A stretch of 64,000 bases of DNA from assembly GCF_029919115.1 (NCBI RefSeq), contig NZ_CP123990.1:3622501-3686500 (forward strand). Direction: 5' to 3'. This DNA is from Variovorax paradoxus. GTDB lineage: Bacteria > Pseudomonadota > Gammaproteobacteria > Burkholderiales > Burkholderiaceae_C. Below, piece after piece: positions 14,138 through 31,673 of this stretch (the stretch's first letter is position 1; each line of letters begins with the position of its first letter). Position numbers and translations under genes: made by a program. Below the pieces are notes generated by a model. The model had not been told where the DNA came from, searched no databases, and saw only the letters and a program-made list of their open reading frames with translations.

Positions 14138-14940
14138 TCAATCCTGGGAAAGTTCGCTCGCGTGCCACGAGCCCAGCGCCAGCTTGGTGAGCCAGGCCAT
14201 CAGCACGAAGAGCGCAACGCCGGTCAGCGAAATGAGCAGCAGGGCCGCGAACATGCGCGGAATGTTCAGCTGAAAGCCGGCCTGCAAAATTTGATACGCC
14301 AGCCCCGCGCCCGAGCCGCCCGTGCCGGCCACGAACTCGGCCACCACGGCGCCGATGAGGGCCAGCCCGCTCGAGATGCGCAGCCCGCCGAAAAAGTAAG
14401 GCAGCGCGCTCGGAATGCGCAGCCGCACCAGCTGCTGCCAGCGTGTCGCGCGGTTGAGCTTGAAATAGCTCTGCAGGTCGGGGTCGATGCTGCGCAAACC
14501 GAGCGTGGTATTGCTGATGATCGGGAACAGCGCCACCAGCGCGGCGCACACCGTCATCGCCGCCACCGGGTTCTTTACCCAGATGATGATGAGCGGCGCC
14601 ACCGCGACGATGGGTGTGACCTGCAGCAGCACCGCATACGGAAAGAGCGCGGTCTCGATGCGCTTGCTCTGCACGAAGAGAAACGAGATCAGCACGCCCG
14701 CCACCGTGGCCAGCGCGAACGACAGCAGCGTGATCTTGAGCGTGACCAGCAGCGCATTGCCGAGCGGCGCCCAGTCGGTGACGAGCGTCTGCACCATCAG
14801 GATGGGCGAGGGCACCAGGTACGGCGGCAGCTCCATCGCCACCACCATCCATTGCCACAGCGCCACCAGCACCACGCCGATGAGCACCGGGTAGAGCACA
14901 CGCTGTACGCGTGGTTGATTCAGAAGGGGCGTGCTCTTCT

Positions 14941-14944
<4 letters not shown>
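14138..14944 (-). CDS. ABC transporter permease (SsuC/TauC/ThiX type)
   Basis: This 268-residue integral membrane protein has about six segments and the BPD-transport signature region (ALVALFPIISNTTLGLRSIDPD). It would form the inner-membrane channel for the substrate captured by the NMT1/THI5-type binding protein of the same operon. The start MKKSTPLL overlaps the ATPase stop as ATGA (14941-14944). Confidence 0.9.
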
Positions 14945-15771
<827 letters not shown>

Positions 15772-15781
15772 GGCGCAAGAA

Positions 15782-16768
15782 TCAAGGCAGTACCTTGGCG
15801 TCCTTCACGAACTCGGTGGTGTACGTCTTTGCAAGTTCCACCTTGGCCGGGTCGAGCAGCTTGGCACTCACCAGAAAGTCGTAGCTCGCCTTGGAACGTG
15901 CATCGGTGATCACGCCGATGCCGAGCTTGGCTGCGTCGCCGCCGGTGATCATGCCCATCTCCTTGAGCTTGGCCACGCTGTAGGCCAGCTGGTCGTCGGT
16001 CATGTTGGGGTTGTCTTTCTTGATCAGCGCATTGGCGGGCGCAGGGTCGGCGAGATAGCTCTTCCAGCCTTCGGCCGAAGCCTTCACGAAGGCCTCGACC
16101 TGCTTGCTGCGGTCCTTCACGGTCTTTTCCATGCACGACACGGTGGTGGCATACGCCGGAAAGCCGTGGTCGCTGAACATCAGCACCGTGCTCTTCGCGC
16201 CGGCTTTCTGGATGGCGTAGGGCTCGGAGGTCAGGTAGCCCTGCTGCGCCGTGTTCTTGTCGGCCACAAAGGGCTGGATGTTGAAGGTGTAGGGCCGCGT
16301 CTGTTCATCGGTAAGGCCGAACTTCGCCTTCAGCCAGGGCCAGTAGCCTCGGTTGGCCTGCGCGCCGATCAAGAGCGTCTTGCCCTTGAGGTCTTCGAAC
16401 TTCTTGACGTCGTCGTGCGCAATCAGCACCTGCGGGTCTTTCTGGAAGAAGGCCGCCACATTGACCACCGGCACGCCGCCTTCGCGCACCTGCATCATCT
16501 GGATGTCGCTCGAACCCATGATGCAGTCGGCCTGGCCGGCGGCCATTATCTGGGTGATGTTGACCTGCGGCCCGCCCATCTTGATGGTCACGTCGAGCCC
16601 GTGTTTCTTGTAGATGCCCTGTGCCACCGCCTGGTAGAAGCCGCCGTGCTCGGCTTGCGCATACCAGTTGGTCATGTAGGTGAACTTGTCTTGCGCCTGG
16701 GCCGGTGCGGCGGCGGCGAGCAGGGCGAGCGCGGCGGCGCCGGCCATGGAAAGAGCGAAAGAACGCAT
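15782..16768 (-). CDS. ABC transporter substrate-binding protein (NMT1/THI5-like)
   Basis: This 328-residue periplasmic protein has a signal peptide cleaved after AAPAQAQ (about residue 25). NMT1/THI5 features include NWYAQAEHGGFYQAVAQGIY and a GSSDIQMMQVREGG segment. The family binds pyrimidine precursors, sulfonates or related small molecules. A GAGAGG site precedes the ATG. It is encoded with a creatininase family protein and a cytosine-deaminase-like amidohydrolase, so a nitrogen heterocycle is a reasonable guess for the ligand (inference). Confidence 0.88.
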   Translation of the reverse strand: MRSFALSMAGAAALALLAAAAPAQAQDKFTYMTNWYAQAEHGGFYQAVAQGIYKKHGLDVTIKMGGPQVNITQIMAAGQADCIMGSSDIQMMQVREGGVPVVNVAAFFQKDPQVLIAHDDVKKFEDLKGKTLLIGAQANRGYWPWLKAKFGLTDEQTRPYTFNIQPFVADKNTAQQGYLTSEPYAIQKAGAKSTVLMFSDHGFPAYATTVSCMEKTVKDRSKQVEAFVKASAEGWKSYLADPAPANALIKKDNPNMTDDQLAYSVAKLKEMGMITGGDAAKLGIGVITDARSKASYDFLVSAKLLDPAKVELAKTYTTEFVKDAKVLP

Positions 16769-16844
16769 GGTGGGAACCTCTCGAGGCTGGTGGAAGAACA
16801 GTTGAAGAAGAAGGAAGCCGATGGGCCGATGCAAGTAGCGCGCC

Positions 16845-17708
16845 TCAGGCGGGCTCGAACGACTGCTGGATGAAGCCCTGCTGGTGGCCGCGCTCCCAAG
16901 TTGCCTCTTCGCGGACAACCCAGCGCAGCGCATGCAGTTCCGTCAGCGCCTGCACCCAGCTGTCGGAGAGCGTGTCCAGGATCTCCATGCCCTGTTCGCG
17001 CGTGGCGCTGGTCGGGTCGCCGATCACGCCGCTGGGGCCGAAGTCGCGCGCGGTCCACGCGCAGGCTGGGCGGCCGTCGGCAGACAGCAGCTTGATCGGG
17101 AACGGCGGCGGAAAATTGGCGGCCGCGCGCTCCATGTGCACCGTGTCGGGCGCCAGCGCCAACATCAGCGCGGTCTCTGAATGGCCGGCATGCATCGAGA
17201 GGCGCTTTTCCTGCTCGCTGGTCTGCTTGCTCGATGCGTTCGGCAGGCGCGACACGCCATGCGGCACCACCACGAAGTCGCCATGGCGAAGGCGCAGCTC
17301 ACGCGCCGCCATTTCCAGCACCTGGGGCTGGCCGCCGTGGCCATTGGCAAACAGCAGCTTGCGAAAGCCTGCGCGGTAAACCGATTCGCCGATCTCTGTC
17401 ACCGTCGACAAAAGCGTGGTGCCGGTCAGCGTCATGGTGCCCGGAAAGTGAAGGTGCTCTTCCGACTTGCCATAGGTGATGGTCGGCAGCGCGAAGGCGC
17501 GCACATCGGCCGGCAGCTTCTCGAGTGCCTTGCCCATCACGCCCGAGGCGATCACGCTGTCGACCGAGCAGGGCAGGTGCGGGCCGTGCTGTTCGATGGC
17601 ACCGCAGGGCAGCACGATGACCGTGTTCTCGCGGTCGGGCAGTGCGGCAATTTCCGTCCAGCTCAGGTAGGGCAAAAAGCGATGGGGCGGTATGTAGCCG
17701 TGGAGCAT
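16845..17708 (-). CDS. Creatininase family amidohydrolase
   Basis: This 287-residue metal-dependent hydrolase has the family ligand positions: Glu39 and His41 (GAIEQHGPHLP), Asp50, His124 (NGHGGQ) and Glu178 (HAGHSETALML). Members hydrolyse creatinine, formamidopyrimidine intermediates or cyclic amides; the true substrate is not shown by the sequence. The start MLHGYIPP lies 17 nt after the amidohydrolase gene and has GGACC upstream. Confidence 0.85.
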   Translation of the reverse strand: MLHGYIPPHRFLPYLSWTEIAALPDRENTVIVLPCGAIEQHGPHLPCSVDSVIASGVMGKALEKLPADVRAFALPTITYGKSEEHLHFPGTMTLTGTTLLSTVTEIGESVYRAGFRKLLFANGHGGQPQVLEMAARELRLRHGDFVVVPHGVSRLPNASSKQTSEQEKRLSMHAGHSETALMLALAPDTVHMERAAANFPPPFPIKLLSADGRPACAWTARDFGPSGVIGDPTSATREQGMEILDTLSDSWVQALTELHALRWVVREEATWERGHQQGFIQQSFEPA

Positions 17709-19748: not shown

Positions 19749-21851
19749 CTAGAAACCGGCCTCGCGCCATGCCACCGAAGCGGCATAGCGCAGGAAGCGC
19801 ATCGCTGGCACCTCCCATTGCCCCGCAATCGCGACGCGGCCACGCCATGAGGGTGTGGTTGCCGGCAGGGGCTCGTCCGCGCCGAGCACCACGCGATAGA
19901 CGGCGTGCTCCGGATACAGGGTGCCGTTCTTTTCGCGCACCAGCACGTCACCACCGAACAGCGACGCCAGCTCGTGTTCGCCGAGCGTGCGGCTCGCATC
20001 GCGGTCAATGCTGGCCACGCTCAGCCGCAGCGCCGGACCGGCCATTCCGTCGGCGATGAACAGTGCCCGGTCGCCCAATGCAATGCGGCGCACAGCCTCC
20101 TCGTCCACGTAAGCCACCACATGCCATTTTCCGGGAGCGACCAGCGCGCCCAGGTATTCGTGGTTCTTGAGCCATTCCCCGGGGCGCAGGTCTGGATCGA
20201 CGTCGACCATCACCCCGGCGTGGAGTGCGGCGGGGCGGTAGCGCTGCAGGTCGGTGCCGACGGCCGCCTGCTCCGCATTGGCAAAGGCCAACTGATCGTT
20301 CAGCACCAGCCAGTCCTTGCGGCTGGCGGCATCCAGGCCCGACGCGGCCGACTGCCACGCCAGCAGATGCTGGCGCGTACCGGCCTCGTCGGCCCGCAGG
20401 TCAAGCTCGGGAGAGGAGAGGCGCAGCAACGGCTGCCCGGGTTGCACCGCCTGCCCGTTTGGCGCCGGCAGTGCGTCGAGCCTGGCGTAGGCGGGCGCAT
20501 AGAGCGCCTGGCGCGTTTGCGGCTGCAGCAGGCCTGATGTGCTCACACGATCCGGCCATGGCAGAAAGAGGGAGAAAACCAGCAACGCCGCCAGCAGCGC
20601 GCTGCGGCGGGCACGCCGGCTCCGGCGCACTTGCGGGCTGCGGGCGCGCCACGCCTGCACTTCGCGCCACACGGGCAGCGCGACGAACCAGCCCATCTCC
20701 ACGGCGAACAGGACAATGCCGACCGCCTTGATGAAGAAGTGATAGACCAGCGCCGCGATGCCAAGGAACAGTACGAGCCGGTAGATCCAGACTGCCCAGG
20801 CGAACACGATCAAGCCCGCATGAAGCCGGCGCGGAAAAGCTTCGGGCACCGGCTCGCCGAACGCGAACAGGCGCTCGCGCAAGTCCCAGCGCGCCAATGC
20901 GAAAGCCCGGCCGTGCAGGTTGGGCAGGCCGAGAAAGTCCGACAGCATGTAGTAGCCATCGAAGCGCATGAACGGGCTGGCATTGATGACCAGCGTCGTA
21001 ATCCAGGTGGTGGTCGAGAGGAGAAAAGCCACCTGCCGAGGGCCTCCCTCCGGCAGCCAAGTCCAGGCCAGCGTCGCCCAGACGGCAATGCACAGTTCGG
21101 TCACGATGCCGGCGCTGGCAACCTCCAGGCGCTGGCCGCGGTTTGCCAGCTTCCACACTTCGTTGGTGTCGGTGTAGGCCACGGGCCACATCACCAGAAA
21201 TGCCAGGCCCATGGTCGGCACGCGGCAGCCGTAGCGCTTGGCCGTGAGTGCGTGGCCCATCTCATGGCAGGTCTTGGCAAACACAATGGCACAGCCATAC
21301 AGCAATGCGCCGTTCCAGCTAAGCGTGTCCATGAGCGTTGCCGAGAAGTGATCCCACTCGCGGTAGACGCCTGTCAGCCCGAGCACGCCGGCGCCAACGG
21401 TCAGCGACCGGAACGTGGCACTGAACAGGAACGCCAGTCTCGGCTGCAGCCACGTCAGCCAAGCGTCCGGGCGCAGCAGGGGAATGCGAAAGAACAGGTA
21501 GTTGTGCAGCAGCCACTGGTGCCAGTTGCCCCGCTGCCTGTTGCGCATTGCGGCCATTGCAGCGGCGGTGCCGTCACCCGGCTGCAGCAGATGCTGGTCG
21601 CGCAAAAAAGCCAGCAGCCCGTCGAGCGCATCCCCGTCGAGCTGCAAGGCCGTGTTCCCATTGATCTCGGCGAGCACGGCCCGCGGGTCGCGCAGGTTCC
21701 AGCGGCTGAGCATTTCGAAGCTTGGCCAATCGAGCTGGAAGTACAGGTTGCGCGCGGGGTCGTGCAGCGTCCAACTGGGCTGGCCGTCGGCCAACCGCGG
21801 GCCGGCAACGATGGCCAACTCCTGGCGCAGGCTGGGAAGGCTCGGCGGCAT
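19749..21851 (-). CDS. Site-2-type M50 metalloprotease fused to an HlyD-like domain
   Basis: This 700-residue protein has an N-terminal soluble part (1-110), then several membrane segments carrying the zinc motif HEMGH (196-200) and the third-ligand motif INASPFMRFDGYY (Asp298), as in M50 proteases. After further membrane segments (to about 425), a C-terminal barrel-sandwich/HlyD-like region (TSGLLQPQTRQALYAPAYAR, GQAVQPGQPLLRLSSPELDL) would face the periplasm. It is the last gene of the operon, 6 nt after the second HlyD gene. By context it processes or helps export the giant DUF4347 protein (inference). The zinc ligands are intact, so proteolysis is plausible. Confidence 0.85.
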   Translation of the reverse strand: MPPSLPSLRQELAIVAGPRLADGQPSWTLHDPARNLYFQLDWPSFEMLSRWNLRDPRAVLAEINGNTALQLDGDALDGLLAFLRDQHLLQPGDGTAAAMAAMRNRQRGNWHQWLLHNYLFFRIPLLRPDAWLTWLQPRLAFLFSATFRSLTVGAGVLGLTGVYREWDHFSATLMDTLSWNGALLYGCAIVFAKTCHEMGHALTAKRYGCRVPTMGLAFLVMWPVAYTDTNEVWKLANRGQRLEVASAGIVTELCIAVWATLAWTWLPEGGPRQVAFLLSTTTWITTLVINASPFMRFDGYYMLSDFLGLPNLHGRAFALARWDLRERLFAFGEPVPEAFPRRLHAGLIVFAWAVWIYRLVLFLGIAALVYHFFIKAVGIVLFAVEMGWFVALPVWREVQAWRARSPQVRRSRRARRSALLAALLVFSLFLPWPDRVSTSGLLQPQTRQALYAPAYARLDALPAPNGQAVQPGQPLLRLSSPELDLRADEAGTRQHLLAWQSAASGLDAASRKDWLVLNDQLAFANAEQAAVGTDLQRYRPAALHAGVMVDVDPDLRPGEWLKNHEYLGALVAPGKWHVVAYVDEEAVRRIALGDRALFIADGMAGPALRLSVASIDRDASRTLGEHELASLFGGDVLVREKNGTLYPEHAVYRVVLGADEPLPATTPSWRGRVAIAGQWEVPAMRFLRYAASVAWREAGF

Positions 21852-21857
21852 GCGGCC

Positions 21858-23249
21858 CTACACGGCAAGAAACTGGCGAATGCTGGCGAGCGGGCGCCGC
21901 AGCATCCAGTAGATGAGCGGCACGCGATCGCCCGTGAGCTTGGCCGTGCCCTTCAGGCCGATGCGCTGGCCCACCGGGCCGTCCAGCCTGGCACGTGCAC
22001 GGTAGGCGTAAGTGCCGTCAGGGCGCGCCGTTGCGCGATGGCTCATGTAGCGCAACGTACCCGTGACCGGCGACAGCGGCGATGACGCAAGGTAAAGATG
22101 CAGCGGCGCCTTGTCGTCCAGCGGAATGGCATCGCCGATCGGTACCCAGGCTTCGATCTCCACATCGGAGGCCGAGGCCACCTGCATGATGCGTTCGCCC
22201 GTTTGCACGGGGCGCCCGATCCATTCGGCCGGATCGTCGAACAGCACGATGCCTGCCTGCGGCGCCAGCACGCGCGAACGCTGCGCCTGGCCTTCGAGGA
22301 AGCCCGACTGGGCCTTCTTTTCGGCGATTTTTCCGAGCAGCGTGGCCAACTGGGTCTTGGCGCGCGGGTCGTTCAGCACCATCTGGGCGGCTTGCCGGTA
22401 TTCGGCCTCGGCAGTGCTCAGCGCCTCGCGCGCTACCGTCAGGCGGCTGTCGATCGGTGCCTGGTCGAAAGAGAAGAGCGGCTCGCCGGCCGCCACCGAC
22501 TGGTTGGGACGGACTGCAAAATCGGCGATCACGCCGTCCAGCGGCGCGCGGATGGTCGCCGGGTTGGCCGGCACCAGTTCTCCGGGGGCCAGCACCGTAA
22601 GGCGAACCGGCAGGCACAAAACAGCCAGCACCACCAAGCCGACACCGAGCCGGCGGCGCCACCGCCTGCCTTGCGGGCCGCCGTTCCACCAGCCGCGCAG
22701 CCGCGCGGGCAAGGCGGCCGCGGACCAGGCCGAACGCCGGTGCGCGGCGCGCCAGGCGTGCTGCCAGATGTCCATCCACTCTTCCAGCACCGCCAATTGC
22801 TCGGGCTGCAGAGGGGCGTCGCCGGCCAGCAGCAGCCCCGCCTCTTCAGCAACATTGGCCGTCTCGCCGGTAGCGCGGCGATGCACGCCCCGCAGCGGCA
22901 CCCATGTTGCAAAAGCGGGTAGCCATTCGTCCCATGCTGCTGCGGCTCCGCGCGGCAGTTGCGCCGGGTCGACGGCCATCGCGCCGCCCGTTGCATGCTG
23001 CGTGGCCAGCGCGCGGCACAGTTGGCCGACCCACTGCACATAGGGCGCATTGGTTTCGACCGACACCACGCCGGACAGCGTGTGCACACCGCCCGCGCCG
23101 AACCATAGTGCGGCTTGGCGGTACGGGGCCAGCACGCGGCTGTCGTTGACCGCCAGGAAAGCGAGTTCGTTGCCGCTCGCCGCAGCACGCGCTCGCTGGG
23201 CCAGCTCGAGCAGCTTGAGGAGGGGGTTGGTCGGCGCGCCTGCGTTCAT
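21858..23249 (-). CDS. HlyD family periplasmic adaptor with cytosolic N-terminal domain
   Basis: This 463-residue protein has a long cytosolic N-terminal region (1-200, GAF-like around 28-80), one membrane segment (about 201-219), then a HlyD/biotinyl-lipoyl domain (PANPATIRAPLDGVIADFAVRP, SVAAGEPLF), a short coiled coil and a C-terminal beta region ending RPLASIRQFLAV. The start MNAGAPTNP overlaps the giant gene's stop as ATGA (23246-23249), which settles it. It probably bridges the inner membrane to the TolC-type protein and partners the M50-HlyD fusion. Confidence 0.87.
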   Translation of the reverse strand: MNAGAPTNPLLKLLELAQRARAAASGNELAFLAVNDSRVLAPYRQAALWFGAGGVHTLSGVVSVETNAPYVQWVGQLCRALATQHATGGAMAVDPAQLPRGAAAAWDEWLPAFATWVPLRGVHRRATGETANVAEEAGLLLAGDAPLQPEQLAVLEEWMDIWQHAWRAAHRRSAWSAAALPARLRGWWNGGPQGRRWRRRLGVGLVVLAVLCLPVRLTVLAPGELVPANPATIRAPLDGVIADFAVRPNQSVAAGEPLFSFDQAPIDSRLTVAREALSTAEAEYRQAAQMVLNDPRAKTQLATLLGKIAEKKAQSGFLEGQAQRSRVLAPQAGIVLFDDPAEWIGRPVQTGERIMQVASASDVEIEAWVPIGDAIPLDDKAPLHLYLASSPLSPVTGTLRYMSHRATARPDGTYAYRARARLDGPVGQRIGLKGTAKLTGDRVPLIYWMLRRPLASIRQFLAV

Positions 23250-26200
23250 GTCCGTGGGCTTGCCGGCGCACTTTGCGACAGCCGTGCCAGCCGTTCGGCG
23301 CTTGCGCCGCCAGCGGCACGCAGTTGCTCGCTCAGGCTGGCCCGCCCGGCCGGTTCTGCAAGGTCGATGTGCCATCCGGCATGCGCGCCCTTGATGCCCG
23401 CATCCTTGCTTACGATGACCTTGAAGACCTGCACGGCCTCGCGCCCCTGGGCATCGCGTGCCACCACCTTGAAGATCAAGGTGCCTTCGAAGGCGAGCGG
23501 CGGCGTGCCTTCGAAACGCGCGGTCCGGGCATCGAACTTGAGCCAGCGCGGCAGCGGGGTGCCGTCTGCCGACTGTGCACTGAGCTCGACCGCCGCCCGA
23601 TCGTCGGCATGGGCAAAACTGTCGACGGGCAGTTGCAGCGACAAGCGGCTACCGCCGTGCACGTTGAAGTCGCCGATCGGGCGGTTGGCCACCAGCGATT
23701 CACCGGTGCCGCGCAATTCCGGCAGCACGAGGATCTGGAATGCGCCATCGGCCGCGGGCCGTGTCAGAAACGATGCGTACGTGGCTTGCGCAGCGCTCGA
23801 ATTCCAGGCGTCGAGGCCGCGCGACAGTGCGCCCGAGTCGAGTGCGAACGGGCTGTTGTCGAGGCTGCTCACCCAGCTGCCTGGGAGCGGGGTTTCGGCT
23901 GCAAGCGGCGGCACCGCCGGCGCGTCTGGTGTGGCGGGGCTGTGTACCTCGGCGGGAAGCACTTCGGAGGGAAGCGCCTCGGAGGGAAGTGCTCGCGGCA
24001 CCGGCGGCACGGGCGGCACGACTGGCGGCAGTGGCTGCGAAACGGCCGGCGGCTGGACCGGTGCGGCAACTGCCTCCACGCGCAGCGGCGTGCTCGCGTT
24101 GCCTGCGGCATCAAGCACCTGCACCTGCAGGGCTCCCGAGCCTGCGTTGGCAATCGACCAGCTCGCGCCGTCGGCCCCAACCGTTGCAAGCACCCACGTG
24201 GCGCCGCCGTCAAGCGATGCAGCAACCAATTCTCCGGCGGCCAGCGGCCCCGACAGCAGCCCGCTGACGCTTCCGTCGCCAGCACGCGTAGCGGAACTCA
24301 CCATAGTTGCAGGGGCGGTCGTGTCGAGCGTGTAGCCTCGCGCGAGGCTTGCGCTCTCGTTGCCTGCGGCATCGGCAATCTTGAACATCAGCGTGCTGCT
24401 GCCCGCCAGAGTAACGCCGCTCCAGGTCAACGCGGTACCCGAGACGCGGCTGGTAATGTCTTGCCAGGTCGTGCCGCCATCGACGGAACCATAGAGGATG
24501 TCGCCGGGCGCCAGCGAGCTGCCCAGTGTTGCAGTGACGGTTTGCACCGCGGTGCGGGTGAGGAAGTCGCTGTTGCTCGTACCGGTGTCCGCGGACAGTG
24601 CCAGGTTGCCCAGGCTCATGGCCGGTGCGGTGGTGTCTACCGCGTAGGTCTGGGCAGGCGAGATGCTGTCGTTGCCGGCGAGGTCCGTAACCCGCAGCAA
24701 GAGCGTGCCGCTGCCTGCCAGCGTGATGCCGTTCCATACCAGCGTGGTGCCGCTGATCTTGCCCGTGATGTCAGTCCAGGTGTTGCCGCCGTCGAGCGAT
24801 CCGTAGACCATTTCGCCGGGCGCGAGCGCAGCGCCGAGCGTTGCGGTGAGGGTCTGGGCTGCAACGCCGGTAATGAAGTCGCTGGGGCTTGTGCCGGTAT
24901 CGGCCGAAAGCGCAAGGCCCGAGAAAGTGGCCGCCGGCGCCGTGGTGTCGAACACATAAGACTGCGACAGAACCGGCCCGTCGTTGCCGGCGACGTCGCT
25001 GACCTTGATCTGCAGCGTGTTGCTGCCCGTCAGCGTCTGTCCGGCCAGCGACCAGGCACTGGAGCCGACCGTTGCGTTTGCCGCGGTCCAGGTATTGCCG
25101 TTGTCGAGAGACACAAACACCCTTTCGCCCGCTGCCAGGTTGGCCGACAGCGTGCCGCTGAGGGTCTGCGCCGCCACGTTGGTGAGAAAGTCGCTCATCG
25201 AGGCGCCGCTGTCGGCCGAGAAGGCGACGCTTGCGACCGAGCTGGTCGGGCCGGTGGTGTCGAGCACGTAGGCGGCACTGGTGGCGGCGCCGTTGTTGCC
25301 GGCGGCGTCGGTCACCCGCAGCTTGAGCGTGTCGCTGCCGGCCAGCGTGACGCCGTTCCACGTCAAGGTCGTGCCGCTGACTTTGCTCGTGATGTCGGCC
25401 CACGTGGCGCCGTTGTCGAGCGAGCCGTAGACGACGTCGCCGGCGGCCGGCGCGCCGCTCAGCGTGGCGCTGATGGTCTGCGCCGCGGTGTTGGTGATCA
25501 GGTCGCCGGCCGTCCCGGTGTCGGCAGACAGTGCCACGCCGCCGAAGCCGATGGTCGGCGCCGTGGTGTCGAGCACATAGGCTTGCGAGTAGGCGACGCC
25601 GCTGTTGCCGGCGTTGTCGGTGACGCGCACCTTGAGCGTGCCGCTGCCGGTCAGCGTCTGGCCGGCCAGCGACCAGGCCTTGGTGCCGACCGAGGCGGTG
25701 GCCAGCGTCCAGGTGCTGCCGTTGTCCAGCGACACATAGACGTTCTCGCCGGCCGACAGGTTGGATGCCAGCGTGCCGCTGATGGTCTGCGCCGCGGTCT
25801 TGGTGACGAAGTCGCTGCCGGAGCTCCCGGTGTCGGCAGAGAAGGAGGCGCCGCCGACGGTGTTGGTCGGCGCCGTTGTGTCGATGACGAGGTTTTTGTT
25901 GGCACCTAGCGAGCCGGCCGTGCCCGGCGTGGCCAGCACGACCACGGCGTTCTGGTGGCTGCCGCCGGCGTCGGTGATGGCGGCACCGTTGAGTGCCAGC
26001 GCGGCGCTCGAGATGTAGTCGAGGTCGGCGCTGTTCTGGCCGGCGCCGACGATGTAGCTGAAGGTCAGCGTGGTGCCGCCCGAGCCGCCGGTGTAGGTGG
26101 CGCTGCCGCCGCCGTCGAGTGCCAGCGTCGGCGTTCCGTTGGTGGTGTCGACCGTGACGTTGCCGGAGAACTGGACCGTGATGGTGACGGTCTGGCCCGC

Positions 26201-29200
26201 GCCGTAGCTGCCATCGGCGGTGCTGGCGCCGACGCCGGTGATGCTCGGCAGCGAGCCGTCGACGTTGACGCCGGCCGTGCTGCCGACGCTGTTGAGGATG
26301 GTGCTGGCGTCATTGCCGGCAGCATCTCTCAGGCTGGCCCCGTTGAGCGACAGTGCGTTGACCGTGATGCCGTTGGCGTCAGCGTCGCCGTTGACCACGG
26401 TGTAGCGGAAGGTCAGCGCGCTGGTGCCGGAGCCCGACACATAGCTGGCGTAGCGGGTCGTGGCGCCGACCACCATGGCGATGCGCGGCGTGCCGCCAGT
26501 GGTGTCGACCGTAACTGCCTCGTCGAAGACGACCGTGAAGTCCAGACGGTCGCCGGTGTAATACGTGCCATTGGCCGGCACCGCCACCGCGGTGGTCGCT
26601 GGCGCGTCGGTGTCCACCGTGAAGCTCAGGGCGGCCGAGGAGGCGGGATTGCCGGCGGTGTCGGTGGCGACCGCGACGATGCTGTGGCTGCCGTTTGCCA
26701 GCGCGTTGGTGGTGTAGCTCCAGCCCCCGGCACCCGCCACCACGCTGCCGAGCAGGGTGGCGCCGTCAAAAATGGTGACGGTGCTGCCGTTTTCCGCCGT
26801 GCCGCTCAGGGTGGGGGTGTTGTCGGCGGTAACGCCGTCGCTGTTGGAGCTGCCGGTATCGCTGGCGCTGGCCAGCACCGGCGTGCCTGGCGTGGCGGGG
26901 CCGCTGGTGTCGAGCACATACGCCTTGGTTAGCACGCCGCCGGTGTTGCCGGCGGCGTCGGTCACCTTCAGCTGCAGCGTATTGCTGCCGGCCAGGGTAA
27001 CGCCGTTCCAGCTCAGCGTGGTGCCGGCCACCTTGCTCGTGATGTCGGTCCAACTGGCGCCGTTGTCGAGCGAGCCATACAGGATGTCAGTGCCCGCCAG
27101 TGCGCCGCTGAGCGTGGCAGTGATGGTTTGGAACGGGATGCGGGTGATGAAGTCGGTGTTGCTTGGTCCGGTGTCGGCCGACAGCGCCAGGTTGCTGAAC
27201 GTGGTGGCCGGCGCGGTGGTGTCGTAGGTGTAGGCCTGCGACAGCACCGTGCCGTCGTTGCCGGCGATGTCGGTCACCCTCACCTTGAGCGTGTTGCTGC
27301 CCGCAAGCGTGCGGCCCAGCGTCCAGCTGCTCTGGCCCACGGCGGCCGTGGCGGCCGCCCAAGTTGCGCCGTTGTCGAGCGACACGTACACCGTTTCGCC
27401 GGGCGCCAGGTTGGCCGACAGCGTGCCGCTGACGGTCTGCGACGCCATGTTGGTGACGAAGTCGCTCGGCGATGTGCCGCTGTCGTTCGAGAAGTTGACG
27501 GTGCTCACGGCAGTGGAAGGCGCCGTTGTGTCGAGCGTGTACGCCTGGACGCTTTCGGGGCCGTCATTGCCCGCCTGGTCGGTCACCCTGAAACGCAGGG
27601 TCTGGTTGACCGCGTCCAGCGTGGCGCCCGTCCAGGTCAGCGTCGTGCCGCTGACCTTGCTGGTGACATTGGTCCAGGAGTTGCCGTTGTCGGTCGAACC
27701 CCAGACGGTGTCGCCGCTCGCCAGCGAAGCGCTCAGTGTTGCCGTGATGGTCTGGCTGACGCTATTGGTGATCAGGTCGTTGTTCAGCCTGCCGTAGTCG
27801 GCCGACAGCGCGTAGCCGCTGAAGCCGGTGGTGGGCGCGGTGGTGTCGAGCCTGTAGCTTTGCACCTTGGGGGCGCCGCCGCCAAGCGCGTTGCTGACGC
27901 GCGCCAGAAAGGTGCCGCTGCCGGAAAGCGTGGTATTGGTACTCCAGTCTTTGCTGCCCGCGGTGTGCACGTCGGCCTCGGTCCAGTTGAATCCGCCGTC
28001 GTAGGACACCTCGACCTGCTCGCCGGCGAGCAGGTCTGTCGACAGCTGTCCGGAGATTTTCTGCGCGGCGATGCTGGTCACGAAGTCGCCGACCACGCCA
28101 GTGTCGTTGGACAGTACGGCGCTGCTCACCGTGGTCGCTGGTGTCGATTTGACGGTGACATTGAAATCCTGGAAACCCGCATAGCTGGCCGAGCTGATCT
28201 CCATCTTCACGATGTTCAGCGCCGAAACGCCGAAGGCCCCGCTGGTGATGGTCTGCAAGCCCGCGGTGGGGCCGATGTTGAAGCTGAGGGTGGACCCGTT
28301 GAAGTAGGTCAGCTTGACGGCGACGGTTCCCACTGCGTCCACCTTCAACGACGCAAGGTCGAAGGCCGAGCCGTTCTGGATGGTGGCGGTCAGTTCGGTC
28401 GCGCCGGTCAGGTTGGTGTCGCCCGCGTACAGCATCGGGCCGGCGTCGATGGCCAGGTTGGGTCCGGTGAAGGTGAGACTCTTGCCGCCGGCATCCTTGA
28501 CGATGGACTGCACATAGCCGCCGCCTGGGCTGTCGGCGTCGACGAAGGTCACCACTGCCAGCGCGCCGTCGTAATCCATCAGCGCCAGCGCGCGGGCGTC
28601 GATGTCGCCGCTGTGTGCCTCCAGTGTCCAGTCGCCGCCAAGGCGGGCCGCGCCCGTCATGTCAGTCGAAGCGGCAACGTCAGCGCCAGTGGCCCGGGCA
28701 ATTCCGGCAAGCAATTGGGCGCCGTCGCCGGCGGCCACGTCGCAGCCGTACAGCAGCAGGTCGCCGCCGCTGGCCAGCGCCTGGCCCAGCTGCGCCAGTT
28801 CGGCCTGCGTGGCGGCCGAACCCAGCGATGCCTGGTTGAGTTGCGTGGTACCAAGGTTGACCAAGCCTTGCGAGCCGTGCGACAAGATGTGGATCGCATC
28901 AAGGCCGCTCTGGCTGGCAGCCCATTGCGCGATCTGCGCCAGGCCGTCGCGGTTGCCGTCGAACTCGACGATGCCGACGCCGTCGCGCACGCCCGCTTCC
29001 AGGCTTTTGTAGTTGGCCAGCGAGGTGTCGACCAGCACCACTTCCTTCTTGCCTTGGTCCTTGGCTGGCTCGGCGGCACGCACTTCCACCGCCGGCGGCA
29101 CCGGCGGCACCGCAGGTGTGCTGTCGTGGGCGGCCTGGGCTGCGTCGGCGACCGCAACGGCGCCGTCGAACATGAAGCGCTGTTCCAGCGCAAGCAGTTG

Positions 29201-29275
29201 AGACGTGGCACGCAGCGGGCGGCGCGTGTTGAGGGCCCCTGCGGGCAAGCGAAGAGGAGAGAGCGACGGGTTCAT
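23246..29275 (-). CDS. Giant DUF4347 / Ig-like repeat surface protein
   Basis: This is a 2009-residue protein. Residues 28-39 hold the ALEQRFMFDGAV motif common at the N-terminus of DUF4347 proteins. DUF4347 (about 78-235) carries HILSHGSQG (His133) and LLLYGCDVAAG (Cys178), resembling a caspase-type dyad. Ten ~104-residue repeats follow (nine full, one degenerate), of the type S.DTG...SLDNG.TW...VTD.AGN...DTTAP, interrupted by three different Ig-like domains. A Pro-rich linker (about 1720-1740) leads to a C-terminal cadherin-like/CADG domain. No classical signal peptide and no RTX nonapeptides are seen. The gene sits between two HlyD genes of one operon, pointing to dedicated export as an adhesin or biofilm protein. 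The start is the Met in MNPSLSPLRL. Confidence 0.9.
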   Translation of the reverse strand: MNPSLSPLRLPAGALNTRRPLRATSQLLALEQRFMFDGAVAVADAAQAAHDSTPAVPPVPPAVEVRAAEPAKDQGKKEVVLVDTSLANYKSLEAGVRDGVGIVEFDGNRDGLAQIAQWAASQSGLDAIHILSHGSQGLVNLGTTQLNQASLGSAATQAELAQLGQALASGGDLLLYGCDVAAGDGAQLLAGIARATGADVAASTDMTGAARLGGDWTLEAHSGDIDARALALMDYDGALAVVTFVDADSPGGGYVQSIVKDAGGKSLTFTGPNLAIDAGPMLYAGDTNLTGATELTATIQNGSAFDLASLKVDAVGTVAVKLTYFNGSTLSFNIGPTAGLQTITSGAFGVSALNIVKMEISSASYAGFQDFNVTVKSTPATTVSSAVLSNDTGVVGDFVTSIAAQKISGQLSTDLLAGEQVEVSYDGGFNWTEADVHTAGSKDWSTNTTLSGSGTFLARVSNALGGGAPKVQSYRLDTTAPTTGFSGYALSADYGRLNNDLITNSVSQTITATLSASLASGDTVWGSTDNGNSWTNVTSKVSGTTLTWTGATLDAVNQTLRFRVTDQAGNDGPESVQAYTLDTTAPSTAVSTVNFSNDSGTSPSDFVTNMASQTVSGTLSANLAPGETVYVSLDNGATWAAATAAVGQSSWTLGRTLAGSNTLKVRVTDIAGNDGTVLSQAYTYDTTAPATTFSNLALSADTGPSNTDFITRIPFQTITATLSGALAGTDILYGSLDNGASWTDITSKVAGTTLSWNGVTLAGSNTLQLKVTDAAGNTGGVLTKAYVLDTSGPATPGTPVLASASDTGSSNSDGVTADNTPTLSGTAENGSTVTIFDGATLLGSVVAGAGGWSYTTNALANGSHSIVAVATDTAGNPASSAALSFTVDTDAPATTAVAVPANGTYYTGDRLDFTVVFDEAVTVDTTGGTPRIAMVVGATTRYASYVSGSGTSALTFRYTVVNGDADANGITVNALSLNGASLRDAAGNDASTILNSVGSTAGVNVDGSLPSITGVGASTADGSYGAGQTVTITVQFSGNVTVDTTNGTPTLALDGGGSATYTGGSGGTTLTFSYIVGAGQNSADLDYISSAALALNGAAITDAGGSHQNAVVVLATPGTAGSLGANKNLVIDTTAPTNTVGGASFSADTGSSGSDFVTKTAAQTISGTLASNLSAGENVYVSLDNGSTWTLATASVGTKAWSLAGQTLTGSGTLKVRVTDNAGNSGVAYSQAYVLDTTAPTIGFGGVALSADTGTAGDLITNTAAQTISATLSGAPAAGDVVYGSLDNGATWADITSKVSGTTLTWNGVTLAGSDTLKLRVTDAAGNNGAATSAAYVLDTTGPTSSVASVAFSADSGASMSDFLTNVAAQTLSGTLSANLAAGERVFVSLDNGNTWTAANATVGSSAWSLAGQTLTGSNTLQIKVSDVAGNDGPVLSQSYVFDTTAPAATFSGLALSADTGTSPSDFITGVAAQTLTATLGAALAPGEMVYGSLDGGNTWTDITGKISGTTLVWNGITLAGSGTLLLRVTDLAGNDSISPAQTYAVDTTAPAMSLGNLALSADTGTSNSDFLTRTAVQTVTATLGSSLAPGDILYGSVDGGTTWQDITSRVSGTALTWSGVTLAGSSTLMFKIADAAGNESASLARGYTLDTTAPATMVSSATRAGDGSVSGLLSGPLAAGELVAASLDGGATWVLATVGADGASWSIANAGSGALQVQVLDAAGNASTPLRVEAVAAPVQPPAVSQPLPPVVPPVPPVPRALPSEALPSEVLPAEVHSPATPDAPAVPPLAAETPLPGSWVSSLDNSPFALDSGALSRGLDAWNSSAAQATYASFLTRPAADGAFQILVLPELRGTGESLVANRPIGDFNVHGGSRLSLQLPVDSFAHADDRAAVELSAQSADGTPLPRWLKFDARTARFEGTPPLAFEGTLIFKVVARDAQGREAVQVFKVIVSKDAGIKGAHAGWHIDLAEPAGRASLSEQLRAAGGASAERLARLSQSAPASPRT
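24070..25870 (-). repeat. Tandem ~310-bp coding repeats, distal block
   Basis: Six consecutive copies of a ~104-codon Ig-like unit (the last degenerate) lie here, with boundaries near 25870, 25560, 25250, 24945, 24635 and 24320. Each ends in a codon block for DTTAP or DTTGP. They are similar enough at the DNA level to permit slippage or recombination. Confidence 0.85.
26905..28140 (-). repeat. Tandem ~310-bp coding repeats, proximal block
   Basis: Four consecutive copies of the same ~104-codon unit lie here, with boundaries near 28140, 27835, 27525, 27215 and 26905. They are separated from the distal block by three unrelated Ig-like domains (about 25870-26905). Confidence 0.85.
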
Positions 29276-29334
29276 GGCGGGTTCCCTGAAGAGGCGCAGC
29301 GTTGGCTGTGTGGCTGCTGGGCAGGTGAAAGGGT

Positions 29335-30114
29335 TCAGCGCTGCGGCGGCGCCATCAAGACCTTGCCGCTCATGCCGGCGGCCAGTTCGCTGAAGCGGCC
29401 GTCGATGACCGCGTTGAGCTTGACCGACTGGCTGACCGGATCCACGCGCGCCGCGATGCGCTGCACCTTGGCCGGGTAGGTCTTGCCGGTTTCGTCGATG
29501 TTGACTTCGAAGGCTGTGCCGGTGCGCACCCATGCAAGCCAGCGCGACGGAACGATGAACTCCAGCTCCAGTTGGCTGTCGTCGATGATCTCCAGCAGTG
29601 GCTGGCCGGGCTGCACATACTGCTGTTCACGCGCTTTCTGCTCGGCAATGCGGCCGGAAAAAGGCGCCGCGATCTGGCATTTGCCAATCAGCGCCCGGTT
29701 GGCTGACACCTCGGCTTGCGCCTTGAGCGCATCGGCCCTGGAAACGTCGAGTTCCACCTTGCCGACCGAATTCAGCTCGGACAGTTTCTGGTTGCCATGC
29801 CATGCGGTGTTGGCTGCCATCAGGGCGGCTTCGGCCTTGGCAAGCTGGGCCTGCTGCAGCTGGCAGTCGAACTGCACCAGCATCTGCCCCTGCCTGAAGG
29901 CGCTGCCCTCGGCCAACGGGAGCCGGTTGATCTTGGCGCCGATCTCGGCAGCCAGTGTCGTGTAGCGGCGCGGTGCCAGCTGGGCCCTGACCTCGCGTGT
30001 TTCCAGCGCCGAACCTGGCGCCGGCTGCGGCGGGGCGGCCTTTACGCCAGGGGCGAAAACCGCGGCCGCGTAAAACAACGGCCCGCAAAGGCGCGCTGTG
30101 GCCCAAAGCTGCAT
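29335..30114 (-). CDS. Periplasmic adaptor (RND/HlyD type), short
   Basis: This 259-residue protein has a signal peptide (cleavage near APGVKA, residue 26) and a compact adaptor structure: an N-terminal lipoyl half (LAAEIGAKINRLPLAEGSAFRQGQML), a short alpha-hairpin, a second lipoyl half (APFSGRIAEQKAREQQYVQPGQPLLEI) and a beta-barrel to the end (GMSGKVLMAPPQR). The start overlaps the TolC-type stop as TGATG (30112-30116). It is short for the family and has no membrane segment beyond the signal, so it would act free in the periplasm with the outer membrane channel. Confidence 0.85.
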   Translation of the reverse strand: MQLWATARLCGPLFYAAAVFAPGVKAAPPQPAPGSALETREVRAQLAPRRYTTLAAEIGAKINRLPLAEGSAFRQGQMLVQFDCQLQQAQLAKAEAALMAANTAWHGNQKLSELNSVGKVELDVSRADALKAQAEVSANRALIGKCQIAAPFSGRIAEQKAREQQYVQPGQPLLEIIDDSQLELEFIVPSRWLAWVRTGTAFEVNIDETGKTYPAKVQRIAARVDPVSQSVKLNAVIDGRFSELAAGMSGKVLMAPPQR

Positions 30115-31673
30115 CACCGGGCTTCCTCGAGCGCGGGCAACTGCCCCTGCTTCCAGCTTTGCAGCGACTTGCCGACCGCGTCGGTAAGTGTCGCCAGAGG
30201 CATGTTCGAAGAAGCGTCCAGCACCGGTTCCATGCCCAGCGTGGCCTGCAGCCGCGATGCAGCCGCCTGCGCGTTCGACAGCGCCTGGTAGCGGCGCAAC
30301 TGGGACAGCACGGCAGTGCTTTGCTGCGAGATGCGGTCCAGTGCGGACTGCTTCTGCGCGTCGGCCTGGTTGGCAACATGCTGCGCAATGCGGCCGTCGA
30401 CCTGCGCGATGCTGTCGGAGCGCTCGTACTGGCGCGCGGTATTGGCGTATTGCAGGCGTGCAATGTGCAGTTGCGTGAGCACGGCCATCTGCATCGCCAT
30501 GCGGCGCTGGTCGGCCAGCGCAACGCCGTTGTCGGCCAGGCGCATCTGCGCGGGCGCCGCAAGCAGGCCCAGCAGGTTGAACGAAATCTGTGCACCCACC
30601 TCGTTCCAGTTCTGATGAATCAGGAAGTCGTCGTTGCTGTGCTTGAAGCCGTAGTTGAACGAAAGGCCCGGAAACAGCTTGAGCAGTGCGCGCCGAGTTT
30701 CCTGCTGGGCTATGCGTGCGTTGTACATGCCTTCGCGCAGGTCGGGGTTGCGCAGCAGCGCAACCTCTTCCATCTTGTCGAGTGGCTGCTGCAGCCAAAC
30801 GGTGTTCACGTCGCTCGCCGGCTCGGCCACGGTATAGGGCGTGGTCAGGGGCAGGGCGGTCAGGGTTGCCAGTTCGACGCGTGCCGTCGACAGTTCCTGG
30901 TCGATGGTTTCGAGCAACCGCAGGTTTTCAAGCAGTTGGCGCTGGTAGCGCAGCGGCTCCAGCGGCGAGCGGATGCGGTCGTCTTCGGCCTTGCGTGCGT
31001 CCTTGAGCGCCAGCTCCGAATCCGCAATGGTCTTGCGCAGCAGCGGCATGAGCTTTTGCGCTGCGACCACGCGCCAATAGGCAGTGCGCACGTCCAGGAT
31101 CAGGTTGTGCAGCGCCTTGCGGCGGCGCTCGCCGGCAATCAGCACCCGGTCGGCGTTCTGGCGGGCGGCATAGTAGCTCTGCCCAAAGTCGAGCAGGCTC
31201 CATGACAGGCCGATTTCGCTCGTGGCCACCTGGCGGCTGGAAGAAATGTACGGATTGGCCAGTGACGGCAGGCCGGTAACGGAATCGACGCTGCGGGTAA
31301 TCAGGTCGTTGTTCCGCTCCCGGTAGCCGGCCGCCGCGATCAGCTTGGGCAGCATGTCGAACTTGCCGACCTCGAATGTGCCCATTGCAACGGCCTCTTC
31401 CATGGCGCGGTAGCGGCGGTCTGCGTTGTACTTGATGGCGCGCGCAATCGCGCCGTCCAGTGTCAGGGGGCCTGCGAGCGGCTCGACATCGCGCTCCAGC
31501 GCGGCCTTGTCCTGCTGCACCGTGGCGCGGATCTCGGGTGTCGAAAGCTGGGCGGTTTCAACGCTGAACGACGCGCAGCCACTCAGGCCCAGCACCGCAG
31601 TGACGCTGAGCGCGGCCGACCTGGCAGCTGCGGAACGAAGGAGGGGAAATCGAAGTTTCCGATGATGGTGCAT
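30114..31673 (-). CDS. TolC-type outer membrane efflux lipoprotein
   Basis: This 519-residue outer membrane factor has a lipobox (LGLSGC, Cys33) and two OEP repeats rich in coiled-coil helices (LTLDGAIARAIKYNADRRYRA at the first; DKMEEVALLRNPDLREGMYNARIAQQE at the second). It would form the exit duct for the operon's export system. It is the first gene; the second HlyD gene, the giant protein and the M50 fusion follow on the same strand with overlaps or short gaps. Confidence 0.9.
   Translation of the reverse strand: MHHHRKLRFPLLRSAAARSAALSVTAVLGLSGCASFSVETAQLSTPEIRATVQQDKAALERDVEPLAGPLTLDGAIARAIKYNADRRYRAMEEAVAMGTFEVGKFDMLPKLIAAAGYRERNNDLITRSVDSVTGLPSLANPYISSSRQVATSEIGLSWSLLDFGQSYYAARQNADRVLIAGERRRKALHNLILDVRTAYWRVVAAQKLMPLLRKTIADSELALKDARKAEDDRIRSPLEPLRYQRQLLENLRLLETIDQELSTARVELATLTALPLTTPYTVAEPASDVNTVWLQQPLDKMEEVALLRNPDLREGMYNARIAQQETRRALLKLFPGLSFNYGFKHSNDDFLIHQNWNEVGAQISFNLLGLLAAPAQMRLADNGVALADQRRMAMQMAVLTQLHIARLQYANTARQYERSDSIAQVDGRIAQHVANQADAQKQSALDRISQQSTAVLSQLRRYQALSNAQAAASRLQATLGMEPVLDASSNMPLATLTDAVGKSLQSWKQGQLPALEEAR

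Follow-up and report, generated by a model that had tools for sequence, protein, structure and literature searches.

Biofilms and contact with hosts are shaped by giant adhesins, whose export is commonly attributed to type I secretion systems powered by an ATP-binding cassette (ABC) transporter. The present analysis concerns a five-gene operon within a 64,000-nucleotide stretch of the Variovorax paradoxus genome (NZ_CP123990.1, positions 3,622,501–3,686,500; hereafter the window), which encodes a giant surface protein, a TolC-type channel, two HlyD-type adaptors (HlyD1 and HlyD2) and an M50 protease fused to a third adaptor part. With type I systems such as HlyB-HlyD-TolC and LapBCE the operon shares TolC, the HlyD-type adaptors and an acidic, Cys-poor giant repeat protein with a conserved C-terminal region. 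It differs from them in that the module of the window contains no ABC ATPase, combines an M50-adaptor, a GAF-adaptor and a third adaptor, and carries a giant that lacks RTX repeats and has a C-terminal tag of its own. The reading that we favor, and to which we give slightly less than an even chance, is that the module is a dedicated trans-envelope exporter of giant surface proteins, SecA-driven and ending in TolC rather than a type I secretion system, in which the RRE-protease-adaptor protein reads the substrate.

Other described systems resemble individual parts of the module. Its adaptor folds match MacA and MexA of the MacAB-TolC and RND tripartite pumps; however, neither MacB nor an RND pump is encoded, and the adaptors are fused to GAF and to RRE-M50. 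The best NCBIfam matches of the M50 protein are site-2 proteases of the maturation of ribosomally synthesized and post-translationally modified peptides (RiPPs), and its RRE-like domain is likewise of a kind found in RiPP enzymes. Unlike these proteases, the M50 protein of the window bears an adaptor, is partnered by a giant protein and not by a small peptide, and remains below the cut-offs of the closest models for its protease part (daptide NF041824, 148 of 300 bits; YydH/LiaK NF058609, 25.9 of 225 bits). The N-terminal motif of the module giants is that of the LEPR-XLL giants (NF012209), but this model names the motif only, and no link of it to an export machine was found in this analysis. 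The periplasmic and outer-membrane half of the module is a TolC-type tripartite conduit, and to our knowledge its inner-membrane half matches no known system.

The operon and its M50-adaptor protein

The five genes form a minus-strand operon, with all members found by window open reading frames (ORFs) and Pfam at the coordinates expected (Table 1). From TolC to M50 the successive junctions are a 1-base overlap, a 59-base gap, a 4-base overlap and a 6-base gap. An earlier note on this DNA, made from the letters alone, had described five leftward genes with overlaps or short gaps running from a TolC-type lipoprotein to a 700-residue M50 protease with an HlyD-like C-terminus, and both the coordinates and Pfam agree with that description. 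Its statement that no ABC ATPase is encoded with them also held: Pfam found no ABC, RND, MacB or MFS pump among the five proteins, and no autotransporter C-terminal barrel or TpsB partner domain. Judged by eye, the N-terminus of HlyD1, the soluble adaptor of the module, resembles a signal peptide. The genome of the window is a single contig of 5.81 Mb with one DUF4347 match.

Table 1. Features of the operon in the window (positions count from the first nucleotide of the window)
Feature	Position	Strand	Length or residues	Evidence and remarks
TolC-type outer-membrane channel, OEP family	30114..31673	-	519 amino acids	Pfam OEP 103 bits; lipoprotein by LSGC box
HlyD1, RND-type periplasmic adaptor	29335..30114	-	259 amino acids	HlyD_3 79 bits; NCBIfam RND_mfp above cut-off
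Giant surface protein	23246..29275	-	2009 amino acids	LEPR motif, DUF4347, nine Big_13/Ca-type Ig stretches, He_PIG, C-terminal tag
N-terminal ALEQRFMFDGA (LEPR-XLL type)	29159..29191	-	giant residues 29-39	conserved in relatives
DUF4347 domain	28580..29041	-	giant residues 79-232	Pfam 163 bits
C-terminal tag GRASLSEQLRAA	23312..23347	-	giant residues 1977-1988, 21 residues before end	conserved in module giants
HlyD2	21858..23249	-	463 amino acids from ATG	Pfam HlyD_3 70 bits
M50-adaptor protein	19749..21851	-	700 amino acids	Peptidase_M50 32.4 bits (cut-off 27.2) and HlyD_3 30.8 bits
RRE-like domain (leader-peptide-binding fold)	21579..21842	-	M50 protein residues 4-91	predicted structure
HEMGH zinc/catalytic motif	21252..21266	-	M50 protein residues 196-200	
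MacA/MexA-like periplasmic adaptor part	19791..20564	-	M50 protein residues 430-687	

Structure prediction divides the M50 protein into an RRE-like domain, a site-2 protease and a MacA-like periplasmic adaptor, in this order. The earlier note had recognized the protease and the HlyD-like C-terminus, both of which stand, and had left the N-terminal domain unnamed. This domain is predicted to have the fold of leader-binding RREs, which in lasso-peptide enzymes binds leader peptides; the structure-match list for the whole model was filled by the adaptor part. The protease part has the HExxH motif together with a downstream D-G ligand motif, the third zinc-ligand motif being NASPFMRFDG at residues 290–299, and H196, E197, H200, N290, P293 and D298 are invariant in 61 of 61 M50-adaptor sequences. 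The protein thus looks like a substrate-reading, protein-cutting adaptor. HlyD2, which had been noted as an adaptor with a large cytosolic domain, does possess an extra domain, and its fold is that of GAF: structure matches and hydropathy place a GAF domain at residues 7–173, one membrane helix at about 203–221 and a MacA-like adaptor at 192–455 (AF2 model, pLDDT 92.6). In a draw of 396 Pseudomonadota genomes with completeness of at least 95%, M50-adaptor proteins were assigned to class A (window-type) at 600 bits or more and to class B (sister class) at 176–460 bits.

Conservation of the module and of the terminal motifs of its giants

An alignment of 11 M50-adaptor proteins compared with genome contigs gave at least 585 related stretches, from which 80 loci were kept. 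According to record titles these belong to alpha-, beta- and gammaproteobacteria and also to Desulfonema, Geobacteraceae and Magnetococcales. In 78 of the 80 loci HlyD2 is encoded upstream of the M50 gene and in the same direction, the other two having 0 and 1.05 kb of upstream sequence. A giant was recognizable by similarity in 61 loci, HlyD1 in 46 and TolC in 41, with all five genes present in 33; since many upstream flanks stop inside the giant, the counts for HlyD1 and TolC are lower bounds. The gene order of the window, HlyD1-giant-HlyD2-M50, was seen in 10 loci. In 33 the order is HlyD1-HlyD2-M50 and the giant lies apart, in most cases upstream of TolC; it is rearranged or unclear in nine. 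When extra shared genes were sought at the loci, the largest groups were ABC ATPases (10) and response regulators (7), neither in a fixed position.

The per-genome tests (ABC, DUF4347, M50 and short SecA) scored the best 2–60 candidates of each genome, most of the genomes being drafts. DUF4347 was found in 82 of the 396 genomes and a class A M50-adaptor in 64, with both in 59 (odds ratio 158; p = 5e-45, a nominal value because the genomes are not independent). Together with the HlyD2-M50 pairs of the locus scan, this co-occurrence shows that the genes are conserved together; the earlier note had named the opposite outcome as a refutation of its reading. DUF4347 was nevertheless rejected as a mark of the module, as 18 DUF4347 regions lie in genomes without the window-type class. 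One of these (L172) is a sister-class locus. Thirteen ORFs in 11 of the 18 regions resemble the N-terminus of the window giant; twelve fall below the threshold of 5.88 for the C-terminal tag described below, and the thirteenth, in L169, which is masked and probably in the wrong frame, scored 6.0. A type I ABC lies within the stretch in four of the 18 regions (L167, L169, L171 and L173). No relatives of the M50 protein were found in phages; 80 plasmid records match it, the best listed being mostly from Azospirillum and the tally also including Escherichia (18) and Citrobacter (8).

The giant of the window has an isoelectric point of 4.26 and a single Cys, and contains Ca-type Ig repeats (NCBIfam NF033510). 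As stated in the earlier note, it is free of RTX repeats, with no match to GGxGxD; such repeats are not universal among type I substrates. The N-terminal motif of the giants follows the pattern ALE[QP]RxMFDGA. Four of six N-terminal pieces of relatives exceed the NF012209 cut-off of 17 bits, one lies just below it and one has no match, and the window's own giant was below it in a whole-protein NCBIfam scan. The LEPR-type motif was present in 18 of 20 complete N-termini versus none of 1320 internal windows. Among 30 DUF4347 loci of the genome draw the strict pattern was found in 14, and a loose LExR pattern in 14 of the remaining 16, some of them sister-class giants, this last being a count without a chance control.

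At their other end the giants share a tag with the consensus PAGRTSLSEQLRQAA, the core of which lies about 30 residues before the end; in giants of the window-type class it can be written as G[RK]xSLSEQLRxA. No Pfam or NCBIfam model was reported for it in the window giant. A tag matrix was trained on 38 of 77 giants, and 29 of these 38 gave a training window; nine wrong-frame ORFs were excluded from the test and three giants were assigned by hand. Of the 39 held-out giants, 38 had a tag score beyond the 99th percentile of the scores of 760 internal segments; 28 of the 39 surpassed every control, the shuffle control, which retained the tag's own letters, having reached 19.6. With training confined to near relatives, 38 of 44 distant giants exceeded the 99th percentile and 33 the control maximum, L033 and L105 passing at a stretch other than the tag. 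The six that did not pass were L039, L041, L079, L090, L094 and L103, and weak or end-placed forms of the tag are visible by eye in most of the giants failing this split.

Five genomes have the module and no DUF4347. In four of them a giant bearing the tag adjoins the module (the tag of L178 being weak); in the fifth, G161, no giant was seen in the stretch fetched. This pairing bears on the view that the genes are a signaling or efflux operon with the giant as a passenger, which would suit a GAF domain and a site-2 protease, a combination that recalls regulated proteolysis. Given how tightly module, giant and terminal tags go together, also where DUF4347 is missing, we consider this view very improbable.

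Two side observations concern the giants themselves. A giant of 3912 amino acids (L181:5022-16757) carries both the LEPR motif and the C-terminal tag, and no class A module gene was found in the 20-kb stretch around it; it is a possible substrate in trans, so that a module might have more than one giant as its substrate. In 14 long ORFs neighboring sister-class genes, the tag gave one weak regular-expression match (L200) and otherwise none; judged by eye, six such ORFs (L220 and L222–L226) have a different C-terminal motif in common, approximately RI[QVA]W.

A short SecA in the sister class and a candidate mechanism

Three of the first class B loci read encode a SecA-like protein of 655–671 amino acids nearby (SecA_DEAD, P-loop_SecA and SecA_PP_bind). 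A search with one such protein yielded 31 short SecAs in 24 of the 396 genomes, mostly 655–762 amino acids from stop to stop (a 516-residue fragment in G323 was left out, and two listed frames, in G134 and G244, are longer stop to stop). A short SecA lies within 3 kb of the M50 gene at 14 of 24 class B places, with gaps of 62 to 1143 bases, and at none of 84 class A places. At twelve further short-SecA loci, a class B M50 gene and an HlyD1-like gene adjoin SecA in every case and an HlyD2-like gene in nine. Overall, the short SecA was linked to M50-adaptor genes in all 26 cases checked of the 31 listed (L197–L202 and L220–L231 among them). The energised component in much of the sister class is probably this short SecA beside the M50 gene. 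Accessory Sec (SecA2) is the described system closest to this arrangement, in that a second, shorter SecA occurs in much of the sister class and is found at its short-SecA loci. Unlike accessory Sec, the short SecAs are tied to HlyD-type adaptors, and the three that were scanned fall below the cut-offs of all full SecA and SecA2 models. No short SecA was listed for 49 of the 64 class A genomes, and the genome of the window has one SecA, with no second.

Further features were observed at sister-class and related loci. A SapC-family gene is present at some class B loci (L197 and L199 by Pfam, L201 by similarity), and the giant of L201 gave weak scores on RTX-repeat models. Contig 1 of G110 contains, at about 2687186-2731572, an open frame of 14,920 amino acids with DUF4347 near its N-terminus, which ends beside HlyD2-M50-SecA genes (L220). 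At L172 and L204 a variant set comprises a giant with LEPR motif and DUF4347, HlyD1, a distant M50 and HlyD2; no short SecA was found there.

A more specific form of the SecA-driven exporter, which we put forward tentatively and regard as rather doubtful in its entirety, is a SecA-powered, TolC-ending route in which the RRE-site-2-protease-adaptor reads a LEPR leader in the manner of RiPP enzymes, with two classes that have their own C-terminal tags and of which one would mostly use a short SecA of its own and the other borrow the housekeeping SecA. In the favored reading, the RRE-like domain, placed in the cytosol, would recognize and bind a signal at one end of the giant; the LEPR region is the likeliest candidate, its motif being seen in both classes. 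The site-2 protease would then cut the giant at or near this region. The three adaptor parts, as a mixed ring, would connect the inner-membrane site with TolC, and the GAF domain of HlyD2 could gate the machine via a small ligand. A SecA-type motor would move the chain; in the sister class this would be its own short SecA, in the window class the housekeeping SecA. Folding of the Ig repeats with bound calcium outside the cell may add a pull. That class A relies on housekeeping SecA, which we infer by analogy, is the weakest step of this mechanism.

The energy source weighed against alternatives

Several observations, the census of ABC exporters given below among them, weigh against a SecA-driven exporter. 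Ten of the 24 class B M50 places have no adjoining short SecA. A single SecA was found in 39 of 46 class A handles (two genomes counted twice); as class A genomes thus mostly have one SecA, SecA drive in the window class is argued by analogy with a distant class. The RRE and GAF fold assignments are confined to the window-type proteins. Finally, a hydropathy scan, as distinct from a signal-peptide program, showed no hydrophobic segment or Sec signal in the window giant, in agreement with the earlier remark that it has no classical signal peptide.

This last result also speaks against a rival reading in which the giant crosses the inner membrane by ordinary Sec and the M50 protein, adaptors and TolC process, anchor or release it, as in LapG-like release or shedding. 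Intact protease motifs and the distinct motifs at the two termini would fit such a role, and retention and cleavage systems for large adhesins exist; TolC plus three adaptor parts, on the other side, suggest a conduit. We regard this reading as unlikely, though it deserves to be kept in view. In a third reading, the M50 protein would be the channel or the energised part, with the proton gradient or folding outside the cell as its driving force. The module of the window encodes no ATPase, and its Ca-type Ig repeats could fold outside and pull, both of which suit the idea; yet site-2 proteases are not known as pumps, and a SecA has been added in much of the sister class, so that we judge it improbable. 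The earlier note had likewise proposed a dedicated export machine in which the protease replaces, or precedes, the energised component. The conserved module without an ABC of its own agrees with the first part of that proposal, and replacement by the protease is not supported.

The remaining rival holds that the module works as a type I secretion system with an ABC exporter borrowed from another locus. TolC and HlyD parts are present, and the giant is acidic and Cys-poor like type I substrates. In the genome of the window there is one true HlyB-type ABC, 1.47 Mb away and with its own HlyD gene (L042:13482-17296). In the 44 genomes identified by way of the loci, a match of the HlyB/LssB type at 1e-100 was found in 22; the PrtD model gave a match above its cut-off in 22 and some match at 1e-80 in 41. 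The LssB-model search covered 47 module genomes, comprising 44 of the 64 from the draw and three via the locus scan, and a match including the N-terminal part of the model was obtained in 34 of the 47; five had no match at E 1e-95 and eight only matches missing that part. A type I ABC is therefore present elsewhere in most module genomes, and a borrowed exporter is excluded only where none was found.

The flanks and the exceptions point the other way. In the flanks of the 80 loci no full-length type I ABC was found, the 16 ABC matches there being at most 97 bits and confined to 10 loci; at L062 an ABC ATPase directly follows the M50 gene. When ten of the thirteen genomes without an N-terminal LssB match were searched with the PrtD model, four were above the cut-off. 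None was above it in G330, G269, G127, G168, G461 or G186, and G062 and G082 have no PrtD-model match at 1e-80; G192 was left out of the PrtD search. Both the HlyB/LssB type (N-terminal match) and the PrtD type are thus missing from eight of the 47 module genomes, one of which, G186, consists of a single 4.1-Mb contig at 100% completeness. An ABC of 767–819 amino acids in G186, G062, G082 and the genome of the window was considered as a type I ABC and rejected, as it matches the cyanophycin-associated NF052233. A type I ABC is accordingly common in module genomes and not required, and a borrowed exporter is in our view improbable. The question raised in the earlier note, whether an ABC ATPase is always absent, is answered affirmatively for type I ABCs in the module of the window and, at full length, in the flanks of the 80 loci, and negatively for the rest of most module genomes; a conserved unlinked type I ABC as a general requirement did not emerge.

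Should the route prove to be ABC-free, a single operon would suffice to test what moves proteins of this kind. The sister class would then provide a connection between a SecA and parts of the HlyD/TolC type, and leader reading by an RRE would extend beyond peptide natural products. Downstream of the operon in the window, about 3–5 kb away on the same strand, an importer-type ABC set (binding protein, ATPase and permease) was recognized by eye at 14138-16933; it is separated from the operon by two unrelated genes and is not counted within the module.

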